DNA from: Rhodothermus bifroesti
GTDB taxonomy: Bacteria; Bacteroidota; Rhodothermia; Rhodothermales; Rhodothermaceae
Assembly: GCF_017908595.1 (NCBI RefSeq)
Contig: NZ_JAGKTL010000001.1
Coordinates: forward strand, 727,001-791,000
Reading direction: 5' to 3'
DNA: 64,000 nucleotides
Positions within the stretch are counted from its first letter, which is position 1. Every line of letters begins with the position of its first letter. Under the pieces are notes generated by a model that saw nothing but the letters and a program-made list of their open reading frames with translations, was not told the DNA's origin and did no database searches. Position numbers and translations under genes: made by a program. This document shows positions 36,421 through 44,824 of this stretch, one piece after another.

Positions 36421-38937
36421 CTAAAACGTATGGCCGATGCCAAAGTGCAACATTGGTCGATGCAAGCCGTCAGGGAGCAGGACGGTTCCCGTGCGTGCAG
36501 GATCGTGGATGCGGTAAGCCAGGTCTAGACGCACAATAAGATATTCCCAAGCTAGGCGTAAGCCTAACCCGCCGCTCCAGGCCAGCTCGCGATAAAAACG
36601 GTTGAAGCGAAAACGCCCGGCATCAGGGCCTGGATTTCGGGGGCCTAGCCACACGTTGCCGACGTCGGTGAATACAGCACCGATCCAGTCAGCTGCTAAA
36701 ACGCGGTGCAGCATGCGTTGCCGTAGCTCTCCGCTGAGTTCAAGTTTGATTTCGCCGCCCAGCAGGTTAGCGCCGTCTACGTTATCCGCAAAGCGGACGC
36801 GCCCAGGGCCTAATCCGCGTAGCGACCAACCGCGGATGCTGGAGGCGCCCCCGCTGTAGAAGCGGCGGTCGAAAGGAATAACATCCGCTTGGCCTAAGGG
36901 CTGCGCCCATCCGGCCTGCAGTTTCCAGGCTAGGACCGTGCTTTGGTGTAAAGGACGGTATTGCCTTAAATCGACAGCCAGGCGCACATAAGGGCGGTAT
37001 AGCAGCCGGTTCCCTGATGCGGCTTGCCGAAAGAAGGGCAGCCCAGGTAGCGTACCTTCATGCATCCCCGGCGTAAAAACGTAGCGGTCTAGGAGCTCCG
37101 ACAGCAATGCTCCAGCCTCGAAGGTTAACTCGTAAATATAGCCTCGGTCCCGCAGCAGTGGGTTCAGCCGGGCAGCCTGGAGCGTATAGCGCAACGCGTC
37201 GTTAATCTGAGGTACAGTGTAGTCATCCAAAAGCTGGGCACGCTGGACGGGGTCCTCAATGGGACGCAGCACCTCATCGAGAAAAGCGGCGCGAAAACCG
37301 CTTAGCGTATCTGGGTTGCTCAGGCTAATGTCGATCAGGTCGATCAGGGAAGTAAGCGCGGCGGTGTGCTGGAGTTCAAGCCGAAAGCGGGCTGTACCCC
37401 GACCGCGAATTGCCAAGCGCAACGCATCTCGGCGAGCAGTAAGCCAGCTAAGCGAAAGCCGGGTACGGGCATCGTAAAGCCGTAGCCAGCGTTCAAGCCC
37501 GCCAAAAGGGGTTATGGCGTAGGGGTAAAGCAACGAGGCCGTGAGCTCAATCTGGGCTGAAGTGAGGAGCCCTTCTTCAAAGTTGCCTGCAATGGAGCCA
37601 GAGGTGCGTAGGCTGAACGTTTCGGCATTGCCCAACAGGTTGGCATTTTCGTAAGTCGCGGCTACACCGGTTCCGAGTTCATTTTCAGTGCCGGTTAGGG
37701 GGCCGCTGCGTTGCAGCATGAACGTCTCCAGGCGCAAGCGATGGCGGGGCCGCGTTGTTAGCGTGATCGCCAATGGCAGCCGTGGAGCAGCTTCGCCAAG
37801 AAGACGTGTTGTATCGGTCCATAGCGGAGCAAAGCGTACATAGGTAAACAGGCCTGTAGCCTCTAGCCGACGGCGCGCATTAAGCAGTTGCGCATAGCTG
37901 TACCACTGTCCAGGCTGTATGCGGAGCATGCGGATTAAGAACGCGGACTTGAGTCGACTTTCCTGGCGGCGGGTAATGATGGCGTGCCCTGCAGCAAGAC
38001 TGTCGGCTATAGGAGGAAGCGCAAGCGTATCTCGGTCGAGGTGCAGTTCAGGCTCTGGTCCATCGACTTCAATGTACAAATCCCCTAGGCGATAGCGGGG
38101 GCCTGTACTTGCTTGCAGGATAAGGTCAAACGAGTCTGGGCGAGCAGGTATCACAATAGCACGGATCGAATCGCGCGTTACCGCGGCAAAACCCGCGTTC
38201 CAGAGGAATTCCATTAGATGCCGACGTTCTTCCAATAGGGTCAGCTCTGAGTAGCGTTGCGCTTGAGCGCGTCGGTGCAGTAGCTGCTGAGGATCAACAG
38301 GGCGATGGCGCAGTGCCGAGCGCTGCATCAACGTGCGTTGCTCAATGGGCGTCAGGTGTTCTAGTCCAGCGTAGGTAATTTGCCGCAAGAACGTCGGGGG
38401 TCCTTCGTGGATGCGAAACGTAATGCGCAGCAAGCCTGGCCGTAGTGTATCATACTGGGCCTCGACGCGGGCTTGCGGAAAGCCTTCCTGGTGGTAAAAC
38501 AACGTGAGGCGCTCCAGGTCGGCAGCAACCAAGGCAGTGTCGTGATAGGCCGGGGGTTCACCGCTGGCCATCAGTGCCCGGCTGAGCGCACCACCCAGGC
38601 GGCCGGAGGCGCCCAGCTCATAAAGCCAAAGCCACCAAGTCAGGCCAGGGATGCCCAGAAACTCTCTGTTGGCCGTGGTGCGCACGTAAAGCCGTAGCGT
38701 TTCGTCAGAGAAAGCACGGTTACCTTCCAAGCGCACGTCATGGACCCGCCAGGGCAAAAAAATTTGCTGCTGGGTTTGTCCCCACGTGGGGAAGCTACCC
38801 AGCAGCCCCCAGCTAAATAACACAAGGACAAGCACGTAGCGTAGACAGGGAGAGGCCGGATGACCGACGGGCGTCGATGCGCCGTCTATTCTTCCTCGTA
38901 GTAGAAATCGTCGTCGGCCGTAGGATAATCCGGCCAT
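36421..38937 (-). CDS. BamA/TamA-like outer-membrane assembly protein (Omp85 family)
   Basis: This 838-aa Omp85 protein has a signal peptide around residues 33-53 (VLVLVLFSWGLLGSFPTWGQ). POTRA repeats follow (VHDVRLEGNRAFSDETLRLYV; LRQITYAGLEHLTPIEQRTLM; YRLGDLYIEVDG with a nearby ARRRLEATGLFTYV). The 16-strand barrel carries FYSGGASSIRGWSLRGLGPG (the lid-loop/strand-1 RGW motif) and ends in MLHFGIGHTF. It matches the Bacteroidota TamA/TamL group, but it has no lipobox Cys. Omp85 proteins insert barrels into the outer membrane. The start at 38937 overlaps the DUF2795 gene by 52 bp; no better start exists before the signal. Confidence 0.86.
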   Translation of the reverse strand: MAGLSYGRRRFLLRGRIDGASTPVGHPASPCLRYVLVLVLFSWGLLGSFPTWGQTQQQIFLPWRVHDVRLEGNRAFSDETLRLYVRTTANREFLGIPGLTWWLWLYELGASGRLGGALSRALMASGEPPAYHDTALVAADLERLTLFYHQEGFPQARVEAQYDTLRPGLLRITFRIHEGPPTFLRQITYAGLEHLTPIEQRTLMQRSALRHRPVDPQQLLHRRAQAQRYSELTLLEERRHLMEFLWNAGFAAVTRDSIRAIVIPARPDSFDLILQASTGPRYRLGDLYIEVDGPEPELHLDRDTLALPPIADSLAAGHAIITRRQESRLKSAFLIRMLRIQPGQWYSYAQLLNARRRLEATGLFTYVRFAPLWTDTTRLLGEAAPRLPLAITLTTRPRHRLRLETFMLQRSGPLTGTENELGTGVAATYENANLLGNAETFSLRTSGSIAGNFEEGLLTSAQIELTASLLYPYAITPFGGLERWLRLYDARTRLSLSWLTARRDALRLAIRGRGTARFRLELQHTAALTSLIDLIDISLSNPDTLSGFRAAFLDEVLRPIEDPVQRAQLLDDYTVPQINDALRYTLQAARLNPLLRDRGYIYELTFEAGALLSELLDRYVFTPGMHEGTLPGLPFFRQAASGNRLLYRPYVRLAVDLRQYRPLHQSTVLAWKLQAGWAQPLGQADVIPFDRRFYSGGASSIRGWSLRGLGPGRVRFADNVDGANLLGGEIKLELSGELRQRMLHRVLAADWIGAVFTDVGNVWLGPRNPGPDAGRFRFNRFYRELAWSGGLGLRLAWEYLIVRLDLAYRIHDPARTGTVLLPDGLHRPMLHFGIGHTF

Positions 38938-39107
38938 ATTTCTTCAATGCTCTCGTAAGGCTCCCCGTCGTCCTCCAGTTCCTTGAGGTTTTCGATTACC
39001 TCGATGGGTGCACCCGTACGCTCGGCGTAGTCAATGAGTTCATCGCGGGTGGCCGGCCAGGGTGCATCCTCCAGGTAGGAGGCCAACTCCAGTGTCCAGT
39101 ACCCCAT
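38886..39107 (-). CDS. DUF2795 family acidic protein
   Basis: This short, strongly acidic protein of 73 aa reads YWTLELASYLEDAPWPATRDELIDYAERTGAPIEVIENLKELEDD and ends in EIWPDYPTADDDFYYEEE. This is the DUF2795 pattern (W-T-x-x-L-A-x-Y-L-x-D-x-x-W-P-A-T-x-x-E-L-I-D-Y-A-x-x-x-G-A-P-x-x-V-x-x-x-L). Function is unknown; the fold is a small helical bundle. I set the start at the ATG at 39107, directly before GYWTLEL; the frame extends upstream without support. Its 3' end overlaps the TamA-like gene, so it likely heads that operon. Confidence 0.88.
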   Translation of the reverse strand: MGYWTLELASYLEDAPWPATRDELIDYAERTGAPIEVIENLKELEDDGEPYESIEEIWPDYPTADDDFYYEEE

Positions 39108-39278
39108 CGTCGGCACACAGGTTTGGTTAATAATATTCACACACTCCCTTGGGGCCAGCACAATAGCATACCGACCCGAAAAAAGCAAGAGGCTAATGGG
39201 CTGCCTTGGCCTTTTTCCCTATCGGCGAAAAAGGAAACGGGTTCCCAAAATGACACCGCAACAGAGAAATTTTTTTGT

Positions 39279-40250
39279 TCAGTCTAGCGAAATCGTAGAC
39301 CGTTCAGCAGCCTCCAGCAAACGCTGGTATTCATGGGGTGTCATGCTGGGGGCCACAAACTGCAGTGGATTTAATGGCCGTCCTTGACGATCGCGAACTT
39401 CGTAGTGCAGATGAGGACCCGTAGAATAGCCCGAGTTTCCACTCAAAGCAATTTGATCGCCACGTTGCACTTTTTGTCCAGGACGCACGAGGATTCTGGA
39501 AAGGTGCCCGTAGAGCGTTTGGTATCCCGTAGCCGGATGATCCACGATGATGTAGTTGCCGTAGCCGCTGTTACGGCCAGTTTCGCGGACAACGCCATCG
39601 CCTGGGGCATAAACAGGAGATCCGTAAGGCAGAAGGATATCAATCCCCTCGTGGACCTTGCGGACGCGTAAAATGGGATGCAGACGCATGCCAAAGCCCG
39701 AAACCACAGGGCCATCTGCCGGCAGAAGCGCGGGCATCTGGCGGCGCCAAACTTCACGCCGTTCAGCCAACGTTAGCAATTCGCGGAAGCTAGCATTCTG
39801 CAGTGCAAGCTGGCGTTCCAAGGCGTCCAGTTTTTGCGAGGTTTCCCGCAGTAGGGTGGCAGTAGGTTTGCTAAAACGGTCAAAAGCCGCATAGGCATCG
39901 CTTCCGCCTATACCGACCTGGCGTACGTCTTCTGAGATTGGCTCTGCCTGGAGCAACGTGCGATAGAGCGATTGGTCGTGCGCCGCTAGCTCGTTGAGCC
40001 TGTCGGCAAACTGATCCAGTTTTTGCGTCATGCGGCGAAGCTGAGCCCGAAGGGCTTCGTTTTCAGCTTCTAAGGCCAGCTCACGGGGTGTAGCCAGCCG
40101 ACCCCCGATCTGCCAAACGATCACGCCACCTATCCCTAGGATAAGCACCAAACCGATCAAGATCCAAAGCATGCGCCGGGACGAAGGCGGACGCACCTCG
40201 ACAAACGAGCACGTGGCGTGATCGAAGTAATAGTAGCGATTTTTAGACAT
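39279..40250 (-). CDS. M23 family metallopeptidase (MepM-like) with coiled coil
   Basis: This 323-aa peptidoglycan endopeptidase has one N-terminal membrane helix (about 28-48, LWILIGLVLILGIGGVIVWQ) and a long coiled coil (about 58-175, with LRAQLRRMTQKLDQFADRLNEL). The C-terminal LytM/M23 domain has GFGMRLHPILRVRKVHEGIDI (H-x3-D), GYQTLYGHLSRILV and STGPHLHYEVR (H-x-H), so the zinc site is intact. Such enzymes cut D-Ala-mDAP crosslinks or act as amidase activators. It lies in the same direction as hprK, 208 bp downstream, and has no close partner. Confidence 0.92.
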   Translation of the reverse strand: MSKNRYYYFDHATCSFVEVRPPSSRRMLWILIGLVLILGIGGVIVWQIGGRLATPRELALEAENEALRAQLRRMTQKLDQFADRLNELAAHDQSLYRTLLQAEPISEDVRQVGIGGSDAYAAFDRFSKPTATLLRETSQKLDALERQLALQNASFRELLTLAERREVWRRQMPALLPADGPVVSGFGMRLHPILRVRKVHEGIDILLPYGSPVYAPGDGVVRETGRNSGYGNYIIVDHPATGYQTLYGHLSRILVRPGQKVQRGDQIALSGNSGYSTGPHLHYEVRDRQGRPLNPLQFVAPSMTPHEYQRLLEAAERSTISLD

Positions 40251-40458: not shown

Positions 40459-41487
40459 TTATTCGTAATCTTGCTCAAAGTACTCCGTTCCACGAAGCGG
40501 CACTGAAGAGGCCTTTTGACGGATGCGTTCACTCAAGCGACGGGCAAACACCTCAGCCGGGTCGTAGCCGTAATGGCGCAACAGGTGGTTCATGGCGATT
40601 ACCTCGCAAAGTACAGTGATGTTTTTGCCCGGGGTAATTGGAACTTTGACCATAGGCAGCTCCACGTCCAACAGGCGATAGGTCTCTTCCACCATGTCGA
40701 GCCGGGTGTATTCTGCGGTAGGATCCCAAAGCTCCATTTTCACAACAATTTCAATGCGCTTCTGAAAGCGAATGGCCCTTACGCCAAACATGGCACGCAC
40801 GTCAATAAGCCCTAGCCCCCGTACCTCCATAAAGTGCTGGACCAGGTCGGTGCCGGTGCCCATCAGTACGGTTTCTTCCTTTCGGGTGACAATCACAACG
40901 TCGTCAGCGACTAACCGGTGGCCGCGTTCGACCAAGTCGAGGGCTACCTCACTTTTGCCAATGCCCGGTTTACCGATAAGCAGCAGGCCAATGCCGTAGA
41001 CGTCGACAAGCGATCCGTGGACAGCCGTCTGCGGTGCAAACTGATCATTCAGAAAGTCGCGGAGCAGGGCCATAAAGCGCGTTGAGGGTACCGGCGTGCG
41101 ATAAATTGGCACTCCGGCTTCGGTGGCCATCTGCACCAGTTCGGGATCCAGTTCGTTGTTATCGGTAAGGAAAATGCATGGAATGGGGAACTGGAGCAAA
41201 TTTTGGAAGGCCTTGCGTCGCTGTGCTGGGGACAAGTGGCGCAAATAGCGGTTTTCAGTGTTGCCCAGAATCTGAACGCGCTGGTAGGTAAACAGCTCTG
41301 TATAGCCTGCCAGGACTAGTCCAGGGCGGTTTAGTTCGCTTTCGACGACCAGGCGCAGCGTGTCGTCGGCTGCGTTAACCCGCTCGATAGGAAGGCCTAC
41401 GGTCTTTTGGAGATGTTCGACCATGAAGGCCACCGTGATGGAGTCTTTGCGGTAGACTTTAAAGGGCTGGTAGGGCATGGCCGGCAA
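40459..41487 (-). CDS. hprK: HPr kinase/phosphorylase HprK
   Basis: HprK phosphorylates and dephosphorylates HPr (or a homologue) on serine in response to ATP, phosphate and glycolytic intermediates. The 342-aa protein has the N-terminal receiver-like domain (LVLAGYTELFTYQRVQILG) and the C-terminal kinase domain. The latter carries VHGSLVDVYGIGLLL, the P-loop GKPGIGKSEVALDLVERGHRLVADD, and MEVRGLGLIDVRAMFG followed by the K-x-loop. Length is slightly above the family norm (about 310). The start may be ATG 41487 or 41478. No ptsH or PTS gene is in the window. It is preceded, 11 bp apart, by moxR, and before that by the pseudo-galactokinase. Confidence 0.93.
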   Translation of the reverse strand: MPAMPYQPFKVYRKDSITVAFMVEHLQKTVGLPIERVNAADDTLRLVVESELNRPGLVLAGYTELFTYQRVQILGNTENRYLRHLSPAQRRKAFQNLLQFPIPCIFLTDNNELDPELVQMATEAGVPIYRTPVPSTRFMALLRDFLNDQFAPQTAVHGSLVDVYGIGLLLIGKPGIGKSEVALDLVERGHRLVADDVVIVTRKEETVLMGTGTDLVQHFMEVRGLGLIDVRAMFGVRAIRFQKRIEIVVKMELWDPTAEYTRLDMVEETYRLLDVELPMVKVPITPGKNITVLCEVIAMNHLLRHYGYDPAEVFARRLSERIRQKASSVPLRGTEYFEQDYE

Positions 41488-41498
41488 AAGGCTGGTGG

Positions 41499-42494
41499 TT
41501 AAGGCACCGGAATGTGGGCTAAGAGCTGTTGAACGATGTGATCGCTGGTGATGGACTCAGCTTCGGCTTCGTAAGTGAGCACCAGGCGATGGCGCAGCAC
41601 GTCGGGGGCTACGGCGCGCACGTCTTCGGGGGTTACAAAGGCGCGGTGTTGAAGAAAGGCATGGGCACGTGCCGCTAGGTTTAAATAGATTGTAGCTCGG
41701 GGGGAAGCACCAAATTCCAGATAGGGGCGCAGCATGCTCAGCCCGTAGGCCTCTGGGTCACGTGTAGCTACGATGAGATCCACCATGTAGTGTTCCAGGC
41801 GTTCATCTACATAAAGCATGTTGAGTGCTTCTCGGGCGCGCAAAATGTCGTCTCCAGAGGCTATCGGCTGTACGACGGGTAGACCATTGGTACGGGCCAT
41901 GCGGCGCATAATAGCCAGTTCTTCTTCGCGGCTAGGGTAGGGTACGTGAAGCTTGAGCATGAAACGATCCAGTTGTGCCTCGGGCAAGGGATAGGTCCCT
42001 TCTTGCTCAATGGGGTTTTGCGTGGCCAAAACTAAAAACGGTTCAGGCAGGCGAAAAGTGGTATCTCCCAAAGTGACCTGCCGTTCCTGCATGCTTTCCA
42101 GTAAGGCACTTTGCACTTTAGCCGGCGCGCGATTGATTTCATCGGCCAAAATTAAGTTGGCAAAAATTGGGCCTTTACGGATCGAAAAGGTTCCTTCCTT
42201 TTGATTGAAGTAAAGGGTGCCCAGCAGATCTGCTGGGAGTAAGTCGGGAGTGAACTGGATGCGCTGGAACGATAGTTTTAGCGCGCGGGCTAGGGTGCTG
42301 ACGGTTAGGGTTTTGGCCAAGCCGGGTACGCCTTCCAAAAGCACATGGCCACCGCAAAGCAAACCGATAAGTAGGCGGTCAATGAGATAGTGTTGGCCCA
42401 CAATGACGCGCCCGATCTCTGTGCGTAGCGCATCAAGGAAAGCGCTGGTGTGTTCAATGTGGGTGTGAACGCGAGCCAGGTCAAAAGCGGACAT
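41499..42494 (-). CDS. MoxR-family AAA+ ATPase
   Basis: This AAA+ protein of 331 aa has Walker A LLEGVPGLAKTLTVSTLA, RIQFTPDLLPADLLGTLYF, Walker B LILADEINRAPAKVQSALLESMQERQVTLG, sensor 1 VLATQNPIEQEGTYPLPEAQLDRFMLKL, and the C-terminal helical lid with SPRATIYLNLAARAHAFL and VRAVAPDVLRHRLVLTYEAEAE. MoxR ATPases act as chaperones for metal insertion or complex assembly, usually next to DUF58 and VWA-domain genes; none of those is here. I chose the ATG at 42494; 58 extra codons upstream lack any domain. It lies between the pseudo-galactokinase (64 bp) and hprK (11 bp). Confidence 0.9.
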   Translation of the reverse strand: MSAFDLARVHTHIEHTSAFLDALRTEIGRVIVGQHYLIDRLLIGLLCGGHVLLEGVPGLAKTLTVSTLARALKLSFQRIQFTPDLLPADLLGTLYFNQKEGTFSIRKGPIFANLILADEINRAPAKVQSALLESMQERQVTLGDTTFRLPEPFLVLATQNPIEQEGTYPLPEAQLDRFMLKLHVPYPSREEELAIMRRMARTNGLPVVQPIASGDDILRAREALNMLYVDERLEHYMVDLIVATRDPEAYGLSMLRPYLEFGASPRATIYLNLAARAHAFLQHRAFVTPEDVRAVAPDVLRHRLVLTYEAEAESITSDHIVQQLLAHIPVP

Positions 42495-42558
42495 TGAGCA
42501 CAGCGTATAAACGTTTTGCGTCGTGTCTACCAAGTCTTGGGGTGCAGTTGGGTTCCCT

Positions 42559-43785
42559 TTAGAACAGTAGGGTTGCCGGGCAGCGTCCGAAATGGGTTTC
42601 GCAGCTTTGCTGCATGCGTTCAAGAAAGAGGGGTAACTGAAAAGGACGGCCGGCCACCAGCACACCATGACCGTAGCCGTTCATTGAAGCCCCAAAGATA
42701 CCTTCCAGGCTCATAGATTCGGCCACGGAAACAATTAGATCGGCTTCAGCGCATGAAGCTTGCCAGTCGTGCCGTAAAGCGGCATGCGACATGAGCAGCA
42801 GCGTGCCTAGCATTTGCCAGTCTTGGTTCCGAATAGCAACCACCATGCGTTGCACCCGCTGGTTTTCAGTGACCAAATAGCGTACTACAGGACGAAGGCG
42901 ATGAGGTAAGAGTGCTTGGGCCCGGGGCAGGTCGCGGTGGGCCAATTCTCGCAAGGAAGTGAGCTCCCGGAAGCCGCGGCGTCGCAGGATTTCAACCACG
43001 CGCTGGGCTAGTTCTTGTTGTTGAAGATGGAAGGCTGGGGGAGGCAGCAAGGTGCATCCTGCATCCACCATGAGCCACCGAAGGACCTCAGGAGCTGGGC
43101 CCTCTAGGGTGAGCAGTTCAAGCGTCTCAGTATCGATCAAGAGAAACATTCCTGGCTGGGCTGCAGGTGCGGCAGCACCCAAGAGATAAGCTACGCTAAA
43201 CGGAGCGCCTAAGCAGGAAGACACCATCGAGGCTAAATGCCGCGGCTGGACGCTAAGCATAGGCTCCGCTGCCTGCAAGCAACGCAGCAATGCTATGCTC
43301 AGTGTGCTTAAATAAAGCTCTTGGCTGAACGCTGGTGCGCTGCTGTAGACCGCAATGTCCAGGGGCTGCTTCTGCGGGGTCAGTTGACGCAGGAGGGAAA
43401 AGATCAACACCACGTGAAGCGGCCAGTCGGGTGGGATGGGCTGGTCGACCCTGAGCGTCCATAGGGTTTGTTCTTGATGGAAAAGGAGGCGACTTTCGGG
43501 ACCCGGGGCAGGGCATGCAGCTACGGCAACGCCTTGAGGGATAGAGAAAAGCAGTGCAAAACCGTTGAAGTAGTGCGTGTGGGCAGCTAAAAGTCCTGCA
43601 GCCCCATGGGCAAACCCTACGACAGCCTGATCGGTCTGCTCGGGTGCCAGATGGGCTAGCAATGTGCGGCTTTGTTGCTGGTGCGCTTCGGGCGTTGGTG
43701 GCACTTCATGCTGCCAACGCGTCATCGCTTCTCGATAGGCCCGCACAACAGGACTCTCCCCACCGTTCCACGTAAACGGTTCCAT
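42559..43785 (-). CDS. galactokinase-like GHMP protein with degenerate active site
   Basis: The 408-aa protein aligns along its length with galactokinases. The C-terminal signature is clear: RPVVRYLVTENQRVQRMVVAIRNQDWQMLGTLLLMSHAALRHDW (about 298-341), CAEADLIVSVAE and GASMNGYGHGVLVA (365-378). But motif 1, GRxNLxGEHTDYxxG in true enzymes, is GAAGLLAAHTHYFNG here (61-75): the GE is AA and the substrate-binding Asp is His. The ATP-binding GLSSSA motif is replaced by SSAPAFSQE (148-156). The G-I-M-D-Q segment with the catalytic Asp is PFSVA (195-199). Motif 3 keeps only part of its Gly pattern. Catalysis is therefore unlikely; sugar sensing or a scaffold role, as for yeast Gal3, is inferred. 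It heads the moxR-hprK group. Confidence 0.75.
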   Translation of the reverse strand: MEPFTWNGGESPVVRAYREAMTRWQHEVPPTPEAHQQQSRTLLAHLAPEQTDQAVVGFAHGAAGLLAAHTHYFNGFALLFSIPQGVAVAACPAPGPESRLLFHQEQTLWTLRVDQPIPPDWPLHVVLIFSLLRQLTPQKQPLDIAVYSSAPAFSQELYLSTLSIALLRCLQAAEPMLSVQPRHLASMVSSCLGAPFSVAYLLGAAAPAAQPGMFLLIDTETLELLTLEGPAPEVLRWLMVDAGCTLLPPPAFHLQQQELAQRVVEILRRRGFRELTSLRELAHRDLPRAQALLPHRLRPVVRYLVTENQRVQRMVVAIRNQDWQMLGTLLLMSHAALRHDWQASCAEADLIVSVAESMSLEGIFGASMNGYGHGVLVAGRPFQLPLFLERMQQSCETHFGRCPATLLF

Positions 43786-43885: not shown

Positions 43886-44824
43886 TTAGCACAGCCGATC
43901 GCCTGGATGCAGCGTATATCCTCTTAAAAAAGCGTCGGCAGGTAGGGTGCGACGACCTTCCTGTTGGAGCTCCAAAATCTCTACGGCACCCTCGCCGCAA
44001 GCCACAATGAGCTGTCGATCTGCTTTGAGGACAGTGCCTGGAGCACCACTGCCTTCGGTTGGACGAGAGCGATACAGCTTAAGGAGCCGGCCCTCGTGCA
44101 GTGTCCAGGCACCAGGGTTAGGAGAAAGGCCTCGGATGTGGTTGTGGACCATAAGCGCCGGGCGGTCCCAAGGAATGCGGGCCTCTTCGCGCGTGAGCTT
44201 AGGGGCTAGTGTGGCTTGGGCCTCGTCTTGCGGCTGCGGATGCGCCTGGCCGTGTTCGATCAAACGTAAGGTTTCGACAACCGCCTCAGCGCCCAACAGC
44301 ATCAGCCGATCATGGAGCTCCCCCGCTGTTTCTTCAGGACCAATAGGAGTGCGTTTTTGCAGGAGGATTTCGCCTGTATCGACCTGGGGCTTGAGGAAAA
44401 ACGTGGTCACCCCTGTTTCCGTTTCTCCTGCCATAATTGCCCGGTGAATCGGTGCTGCCCCCCGATAGCGGGGAAGAAGCGACGCATGCAGGTTAAAGGC
44501 GCCCAAGCGGGCTTGGGTGTAGACTTCCGGTGGCAGGATTTTGAAGGCGACCACCACAATCACGTCCGGCGCTAGCCTTTTGATCGCTTCAGCAAAGGCT
44601 GGATCGCGCACGGATTCGGGTTGTAAAATGGGCTGCAGTCCTAAGCGCTGGGCTGCGATTTTTACGGGGGGCGGCGCTACGTGCAGGCCTCGGCCACGCG
44701 GACGATCGGGACCTGTGACTACGGCTACAGGTCGGTAGCCGGCTTCGACCATCCGTTCCAGTGAGGGCACGGCAAATTCCGGTGTGCCCATAAAAATGAT
44801 GCGCAGCGTCGCGCTATCCTTCAT
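43886..44824 (-). CDS. fmt: methionyl-tRNA formyltransferase
   Basis: Fmt formylates Met-tRNAfMet using 10-formyl-THF for translation initiation. The 312-aa protein shows LRIIFMGTPEFAVPSLERM, VVTGPDRPRGRGL, VVVAFKILPPEVY, FNLHASLLPRYRGAAPIHRAIMAGE (formate site, with the catalytic N-H-D triad residues), DTGEILLQ, and the C-terminal OB-like domain IRGLSPNPGAWTL. The start ATG 44824 overlaps the fabF stop by 11 bp. No def gene is adjacent, unlike the common def-fmt pair. Confidence 0.95.
   Translation of the reverse strand: MKDSATLRIIFMGTPEFAVPSLERMVEAGYRPVAVVTGPDRPRGRGLHVAPPPVKIAAQRLGLQPILQPESVRDPAFAEAIKRLAPDVIVVVAFKILPPEVYTQARLGAFNLHASLLPRYRGAAPIHRAIMAGETETGVTTFFLKPQVDTGEILLQKRTPIGPEETAGELHDRLMLLGAEAVVETLRLIEHGQAHPQPQDEAQATLAPKLTREEARIPWDRPALMVHNHIRGLSPNPGAWTLHEGRLLKLYRSRPTEGSGAPGTVLKADRQLIVACGEGAVEILELQQEGRRTLPADAFLRGYTLHPGDRLC

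Follow-up and report, generated by a model that had tools for sequence, protein, structure and literature searches.

We describe a set of three genes on the minus strand of a Rhodothermus bifroesti contig (NZ_JAGKTL010000001.1), lying within a stretch of 64,000 nucleotides (positions 727,001 to 791,000), hereafter the window, whose own numbering is used throughout. The assembly comprises 2.88 Mb and is 98.7% complete. The first gene of the set (42559..43785) encodes a 408-residue protein, termed here pGalK, which is predicted to have the fold of a galactokinase and appears to be catalytically dead. It is followed by moxR (41499..42494), encoding a MoxR-type AAA+ ATPase of 331 residues, and by hprK (40459..41487), encoding HPr kinase/phosphorylase. 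The conserved row of a dead galactokinase before moxR and hprK suggests, from sequence comparison, that an enzyme has been reused as a non-catalytic accessory.

With moxR starting from the ATG at 42494 and hprK from the TTG at 41487, the gaps between the three same-strand open reading frames (ORFs) are 64 bp (pGalK-moxR) and 11 bp (moxR-hprK), as given in a first-pass annotation of the window. An alternative in-frame ATG for hprK at 41478 extends the second gap to 20 bp. A longer moxR ORF of 389 residues, starting at 42668 and overlapping pGalK, was rejected as an over-extended start, since alignments to orthologues start at, or close to, the first residue of the product from 42494. The identities proposed for the second and third genes also held. 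MoxR matches PF07726 (AAA_3, 220 bits) and PF17863 (AAA lid, 82 bits), and is similar in this to RavA and other MoxR ATPases, while its neighbours pGalK and hprK set it apart from them. HprK is full-length, carries both PF02603 and PF07475, and scores 361 bits against TIGR00679, above the equivalog cut-off of 240. It resembles known HprK proteins in these respects and in having an HPr with the Ser46 motif in its genome.

pGalK is a remote galactokinase homologue. It matches PF10509 at 18.4 bits, below the cut-off of 23.1, and NF003006 at 75.6 bits, far under the cut-off of 443, and galactokinases in the PDB match its sequence at an E-value of 1.7e-11. Among 31 pGalK orthologues, PF10509 was found in 20, GHMP_kinases_C in 4 and GHMP_kinases_N in 3 (E-values up to 0.01). 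The AlphaFold2 model, built from a 31-row alignment, has a predicted local distance difference test score of 92.2 and a predicted TM-score of 0.90, and its best Foldseek match is 6gr2 (TM 0.76/0.81). VIA-align superimposed the model onto human GALK1 (1wuu_B) over 366 residues with a Z-score of 41.0, a root-mean-square deviation of 2.8 and 21% identity, and onto yeast Gal3p (3v2u_D) with a Z-score of 30.7. A full-length galactokinase fold is predicted for pGalK from this model, in line with the full-length homologue named in the first-pass annotation.

We aligned the pGalKs (32, later 52) with 21 true galactokinases (GalKs) of the class, including the GalK of the window genome. In the tree, all pGalKs form one clade apart from the true GalKs (support 0.94). 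The GEHTD, GLSSSA and GIMDQ motifs had been reported as altered or lost in the window protein, and the key residues are lost in all 52 aligned pGalKs. The Arg of the PGR motif is present in 21/21 true GalKs and 0/52 pGalKs, where the column holds S, A, V, T or another residue (A62 in the window protein). The Gly of the G-(E/D/N)-HTD motif, found in all 21 true GalKs, is A67 in the window pGalK, and the HTD Asp, likewise in 21/21 true GalKs, occurs in 0/52 pGalKs, being replaced by H in 42 (H71 in the window protein). The GLSSSA loop reads SSS in each true GalK, whereas no pGalK keeps more than one of these Ser, with mixed residues instead (L157-Y158-L159 in the window protein). The base Asp of GIMDQ is found in 21/21 true GalKs and 0/52 pGalKs, of which 45 have Y or F (Y200 in the window protein). 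The catalytic Arg and Asp correspond to R37 and D186 of human GALK1. The N-terminal loop retains H69 (44/52), T70 and Y72. The C-terminal signature, earlier read as kept, holds in its helical part (ENxRV ... SHxSLRxDY type) and is eroded at the GGGFGG glycine loop. Judged by these residues, pGalK is catalytically disarmed.

Conservation was measured as weighted column entropy over the 52 pGalKs and compared with 5000 random sets (background 2.16). The phosphate (ATP, adenosine triphosphate) loop is unconstrained (2.41, P 0.76), the GGGFGG loop is close to background (2.18, P 0.51) and the seven sugar-contact (galactose) positions are not specially conserved (1.83, P 0.18). These values do not favour the sugar binding or sensing suggested by the first-pass annotation, an idea that would require a new ligand site. 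The N-terminal loop (residues 60-72) has an entropy of 1.52 (P 0.008), and the C-terminal helices (residues 304-341, encoded by 42763..42876 on the minus strand) show the strongest conservation among the five elements, with an entropy of 1.27 and 0/5000 random sets as low. The same stretch is ordinary in the true GalKs (1.60 vs a background of 1.67, P 0.31), whose catalytic loops are highly conserved. Within it, D322 and Q324 are invariant in 52/52 pGalKs and residue 323 is W in 47/52; at the same three positions (the DWQ turn) the true GalKs have D in 15/21, W in 2/21 and Q in 0/21. The conservation of 304-341 alongside unconstrained old loops therefore indicates that the constraint on pGalK serves some role other than galactokinase catalysis. 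We infer that residues 304-341 form a surface.

pGalK is under purifying selection. The ratio of nonsynonymous to synonymous substitution rates (dN/dS) is 0.10-0.14 in Rhodothermus, from the five pairs in which dS was finite (a sixth, the one with the window pGalK, was saturated), and 0.20-0.22 in three f14 pairs. A pseudogene or artefact is ruled out by these ratios of 0.10-0.22 together with the lack of internal stops in all 57 orthologue-level matches of the class-wide search and in the 34 of the 60-genome sample. This ratio is tighter for MoxR (0-0.06) and HprK (0.01-0.14), and pGalK is the fastest of four proteins compared, with a tree length of 25.5 vs 6.7 for MoxR, 9.0 for HprK and 14.4 for the upstream neighbour Fmt.

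When 195 genomes of the class were searched with a profile, pGalK was found in 57 of the 98 genomes of the order (the window genome included) with E-values of 1.4e-53 or better, and a pGalK fragment in one further genome of the order (G179). No orthologue-level match was found in the 97 genomes of the class outside the order (best E-value 9.6e-32), where the 98/97 split assumes that 57 unmatched genomes missing from the kinship-ordered list lie outside it. The four outside-order matches that were read (L189, L190, L197, L198) belong to the 21 true GalKs, and true GalKs of the order reach 1.6e-48 in the same search (G012, L180). A scan of named contigs gave 31 pGalK loci, filed under Rhodothermus, Roseithermus, Salinivenus, Rhodothermales/Rhodothermaceae/Rhodothermia and Salinibacteraceae, and some merely under Bacteroidetes/Bacteroidota or "uncultured bacterium". 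Six other genomes of the genus Rhodothermus were searched. In G002, G003 and G006 of this genus, all with pGalK, true GalK had no match at an E-value of 0.001, so pGalK is seemingly independent of a Leloir galactokinase.

The set is flanked on the same strand by fmt (methionyl-tRNA formyltransferase, 43886..44824, PF00551/PF02911) and by an M23 peptidase gene (39279..40250, PF01551), giving the minus-strand order fmt, pGalK, moxR, hprK, M23. We used both flanks as synteny controls. Adjacency, scored as the same direction with a gap of -60 to 500 bp, was counted at loci that extend far enough for a judgement; the counts include related genomes, which are not independent of one another. pGalK and moxR are adjacent in 50/51 loci and moxR and hprK in 48/49, compared with 40/52 for Fmt-pGalK and 23/43 for hprK-M23, which rules out a chance neighbourhood. 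Neither of the findings that the first-pass annotation had named as contradicting it, an intact alternative catalytic Asp and P-loop or an unconserved neighbourhood, emerged: the residues are lost in 52 proteins and the order is kept at nearly every pGalK locus. In loci L040 and L063, Fmt is not beside pGalK and the upstream neighbour is a divergent large gene, RND/MMPL-like transporter by eye, which makes pGalK the first gene of its own unit at these two loci. pGalK, moxR and hprK probably form one transcription unit; a promoter and terminator scan gave counts within the shuffle range and was uninformative. A divergent RND/MMPL-like transporter gene (by eye) also borders moxR in L099, where pGalK is lost.

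The moxR-hprK pair persists without pGalK. In 17 pGalK-minus genomes with hprK over the cut-off, moxR and hprK are adjacent in 17/17, and Fmt lies at most 250 bp from moxR in 10/17; the Fmt-MoxR gap of G007 holds a divergent transporter-like gene (by eye). The profile found no hidden divergent pGalK in 18/18 pGalK-minus loci (L099-L116, with L114 holding the moxR-hprK pair of G049). The sister order differs: hprK is over the cut-off in 55/59 genomes and MoxR stands beside it in 0/30 loci read, of which 28 extend far enough to show it. MoxR was found away from hprK at 63-67% identity in 6/6 sister-order genomes tested, in G098 next to ORFs that read by eye as NADH dehydrogenase subunits. An M23-type match follows hprK in 23/30 sister-order loci (L227-L256), so the hprK-M23 pair looks older than the moxR-hprK pair.

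We mapped losses onto a tree of MoxR, HprK, Fmt and M23 from 90 genomes, including five outgroup genomes; several deep nodes of this tree are weakly supported (0.5-0.8). pGalK is lost from 2/3 f9 genomes, 6/6 f12 genomes, three f13 genomes (presumably Salinibacter-like), one f8 genome and two f2 genomes, with hprK retained in all; the three genomes of the basal f3 are also without pGalK. Family f15 groups with the pGalK-bearing f14 (support 0.80 one node up). A pGalK-level match is absent from 15/15 f15 genomes, in which two GalK matches (L187, L193) were read as true GalK. HprK is absent from the MoxR locus in 15/15 f15 genomes (1.5 kb read on each side of MoxR) and from 6/6 searched genome-wide, and HPr is absent from the same 6/6. 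All 15 retain MoxR (68-71% identity), and in L300 and L302, where both flanks were read, it lies between Fmt and M23, so that two separate deletions are needed. The co-loss of pGalK, HprK and HPr in f15 is no more than suggestive of a functional link.

In a sample of 60 genomes, 34 have pGalK, of which 33 have HprK over the cut-off and one (G027) a partial match. The other 26 lack pGalK, 17 with HprK over the cut-off and 9 without, although two of these nine (G021 and G052) are only 85% and 72% complete. HprK is also present at 20/20 further pGalK loci. The raw association of pGalK with HprK amounts to two or three evolutionary events.

The HPr of the window genome lies at L118 6911-7198, with the motifs LHTRPAS and NGKSIIGVM, and is followed by a 632-residue ORF read by eye as enzyme I. 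The His15 and Ser46 motifs (HTRPAS, KS(I/V)IGVM) are kept in 30/30 HPr loci read, of 54 places listed, and since such an HPr is encoded in the genome, HprK has its substrate. HPr was found in 52/60 genomes, the eight without it being the six f15 genomes, G003 and G056. In G003, of the genus Rhodothermus, an assembly gap or a real loss could account for this. The window genome has two PTS_EIIA_2 matches and no match to PTS_EIIC PF02378, the one EIIC family searched. HprK probably works here in a regulatory rather than a transport phosphotransferase system (PTS), as far as gene content indicates. A 2008 survey gives the PTS as absent from Bacteroidetes, the name under which several of these genomes are filed (PMC2405797).

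We tentatively favour, with somewhat less than even confidence, pGalK as an accessory of the HprK-HPr branch that works by binding a protein rather than by catalysis, a selected pseudoenzyme that heads the probable pGalK-moxR-hprK unit. pGalK would have arisen once, before most Rhodothermales families diverged, then lost its residues for handling ATP and galactose and been kept by selection as a non-catalytic protein. The 304-341 helical element with its DWQ turn may contact a partner protein, with HprK or HPr first in line. A small ligand that controls this contact may still bind in the old cleft, where H71, S197 and Y/F200 are new common residues next to the retained H69. With or without such a ligand, pGalK would tune the phosphorylation of HPr at Ser46, as an accessory that lineages can drop.

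Several observations weigh against this reading. Assuming that pGalK was never regained, at least five losses of it have left moxR-hprK in place. The f15 co-loss is a single event, with about 0.07 pGalK losses expected by chance on that branch. G015 (f10) lacks pGalK, HprK and a close MoxR (best 52%) yet keeps HPr, while G003 (99% complete) and G056 (87%) have pGalK and HprK and no HPr match. In G049, the lone break between pGalK and moxR, pGalK lies about 0.45 Mb from moxR-hprK, and in the sister order HprK exists without pGalK or an adjacent moxR. Rate covariation does not discriminate, the partial rho of pGalK being 0.48 with HprK, 0.50 with the control Fmt and 0.36 with MoxR. HprK distances in loss lineages vs their pGalK-bearing relatives are 0.48/0.46 in f9, 0.59/0.56 in f8 and 0.76/0.73 in f2, and the distance in f13 is lower than in its relatives (0.64 vs 0.78), so no HprK acceleration after pGalK loss was seen in these four lineages. 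The all-minus f12 stands high (HprK 0.96, MoxR 0.78), with an HprK/MoxR ratio of 1.25 vs 0.80-0.81 in its sister f9; f3 has an HprK distance of 0.70 and no pGalK-bearing sister for comparison. A search for parallel column changes in HprK or MoxR of pGalK-minus lineages gave none in more than 3/6 groups and nothing convincing. Taken together, the repeated losses with moxR-hprK kept and the f15 co-loss with HprK and HPr make a link to HprK likelier than one to MoxR, but an accessory one.

Close to the favoured reading stands the explanation that pGalK is a functional, non-catalytic passenger of the operon, whose role is unrelated to HprK or MoxR and whose position reflects a stable locus and a common promoter. 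The wider locus, from Fmt through pGalK, MoxR, HprK, M23 and a small ORF to a BamA-like gene, keeps its gene order in many genomes and brings together genes of unrelated function. The separate losses of pGalK, the lack of HprK-specific rate covariation and the absence, outside f12, of any clear change in HprK rate once pGalK was lost fit a passenger as well. However, the core pairs are broken far less often than the flanking pairs, and f15 misses pGalK and HprK on either side of a kept MoxR. On balance we regard a passenger as possible, if somewhat unlikely. The earlier proposal of a common role for the three genes stands in part: the order is kept nearly everywhere pGalK occurs, but MoxR is kept without pGalK and HprK in f15 and pGalK was lost elsewhere from beside an intact moxR-hprK.

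A more specific form of the favoured accessory reading, which we consider doubtful, would make pGalK a convergent bacterial equivalent of Gal3p. As a regulatory subunit descended from a galactokinase, it would tune HprK, and with it HPr Ser46 phosphorylation, through the DWQ element, with a cleft ligand other than galactose and ATP, in a regulatory PTS without a PF02378-type EIIC. We consider it less likely still that pGalK serves MoxR, as its substrate or as an adaptor. MoxR ATPases often have a von Willebrand A (vWA) partner, which pGalK would replace; the pGalK-moxR pair (50/51) is as tight as moxR-hprK (48/49), and no vWA domain was matched in the five proteins scanned (pGalK, MoxR, HprK, Fmt and M23). 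Against this, the MoxR orthologue is kept without pGalK in all f15 genomes, in the 17 further pGalK-minus genomes and in the six sister-order genomes tested. It is very improbable that pGalK phosphorylates something through a rebuilt active site: the kept H69, T70 and Y72, the new H71 and the Y/F in place of the base Asp speak for it, but the phosphate loop is unconstrained, the Arg and both Asp are gone from 52/52, and no alternative P-loop was noticed, though no dedicated motif search was made. Equally improbable is a galactose sensor that would bind the sugar together with ATP, carry out no catalysis and signal to HprK; this reading draws on the fold in common with Gal3p, a galactokinase-like co-inducer (PMC3048525), although most sugar-contact and ATP positions are lost and G002, G003 and G006 have pGalK and no true GalK match.

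With GALK1 and the other GHMP galactokinases, pGalK has the whole fold in common, and it differs in its missing catalytic residues and in falling below the family cut-offs. By its title, the 3v2u structure shows Gal3p in the presence of galactose and ATP, whereas the corresponding pGalK sites are not conserved. Regulatory pseudoenzymes are well known among protein kinases. Gal80 is the yeast partner of Gal3p, and we know of no bacterial counterpart. For galactokinases, the classical regulatory case is the Gal1/Gal3 pair of yeast, in which the fold is used in regulation (PMC3048525). In the open-licence literature we found no paper on pseudokinases among galactokinases or GHMP proteins, none joining hprK, MoxR and galactokinase, and none joining MoxR AAA proteins with HPr kinase. 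If the accessory reading is true, a bacterial pseudo-galactokinase tied to HprK by gene order and one co-loss would be a second, independent case after Gal1/Gal3, and pGalK could bring a new input into carbon regulation beyond the Firmicutes. The lineages that lost pGalK would serve as natural controls.

Two minor features of the loci were also recorded. In G049 (L050, L114), about 0.65 kb separates pGalK from Fmt on its upstream side, and an ORF read by eye as a Gfo/Idh-like oxidoreductase converges on the 3' end of pGalK. In the window, a small acidic ORF of at most 100 residues (38886..39188, minus strand) lies between the M23 and BamA-like genes; it is found at many loci, with 61-98% identity where matched, and may be DUF2795-like.

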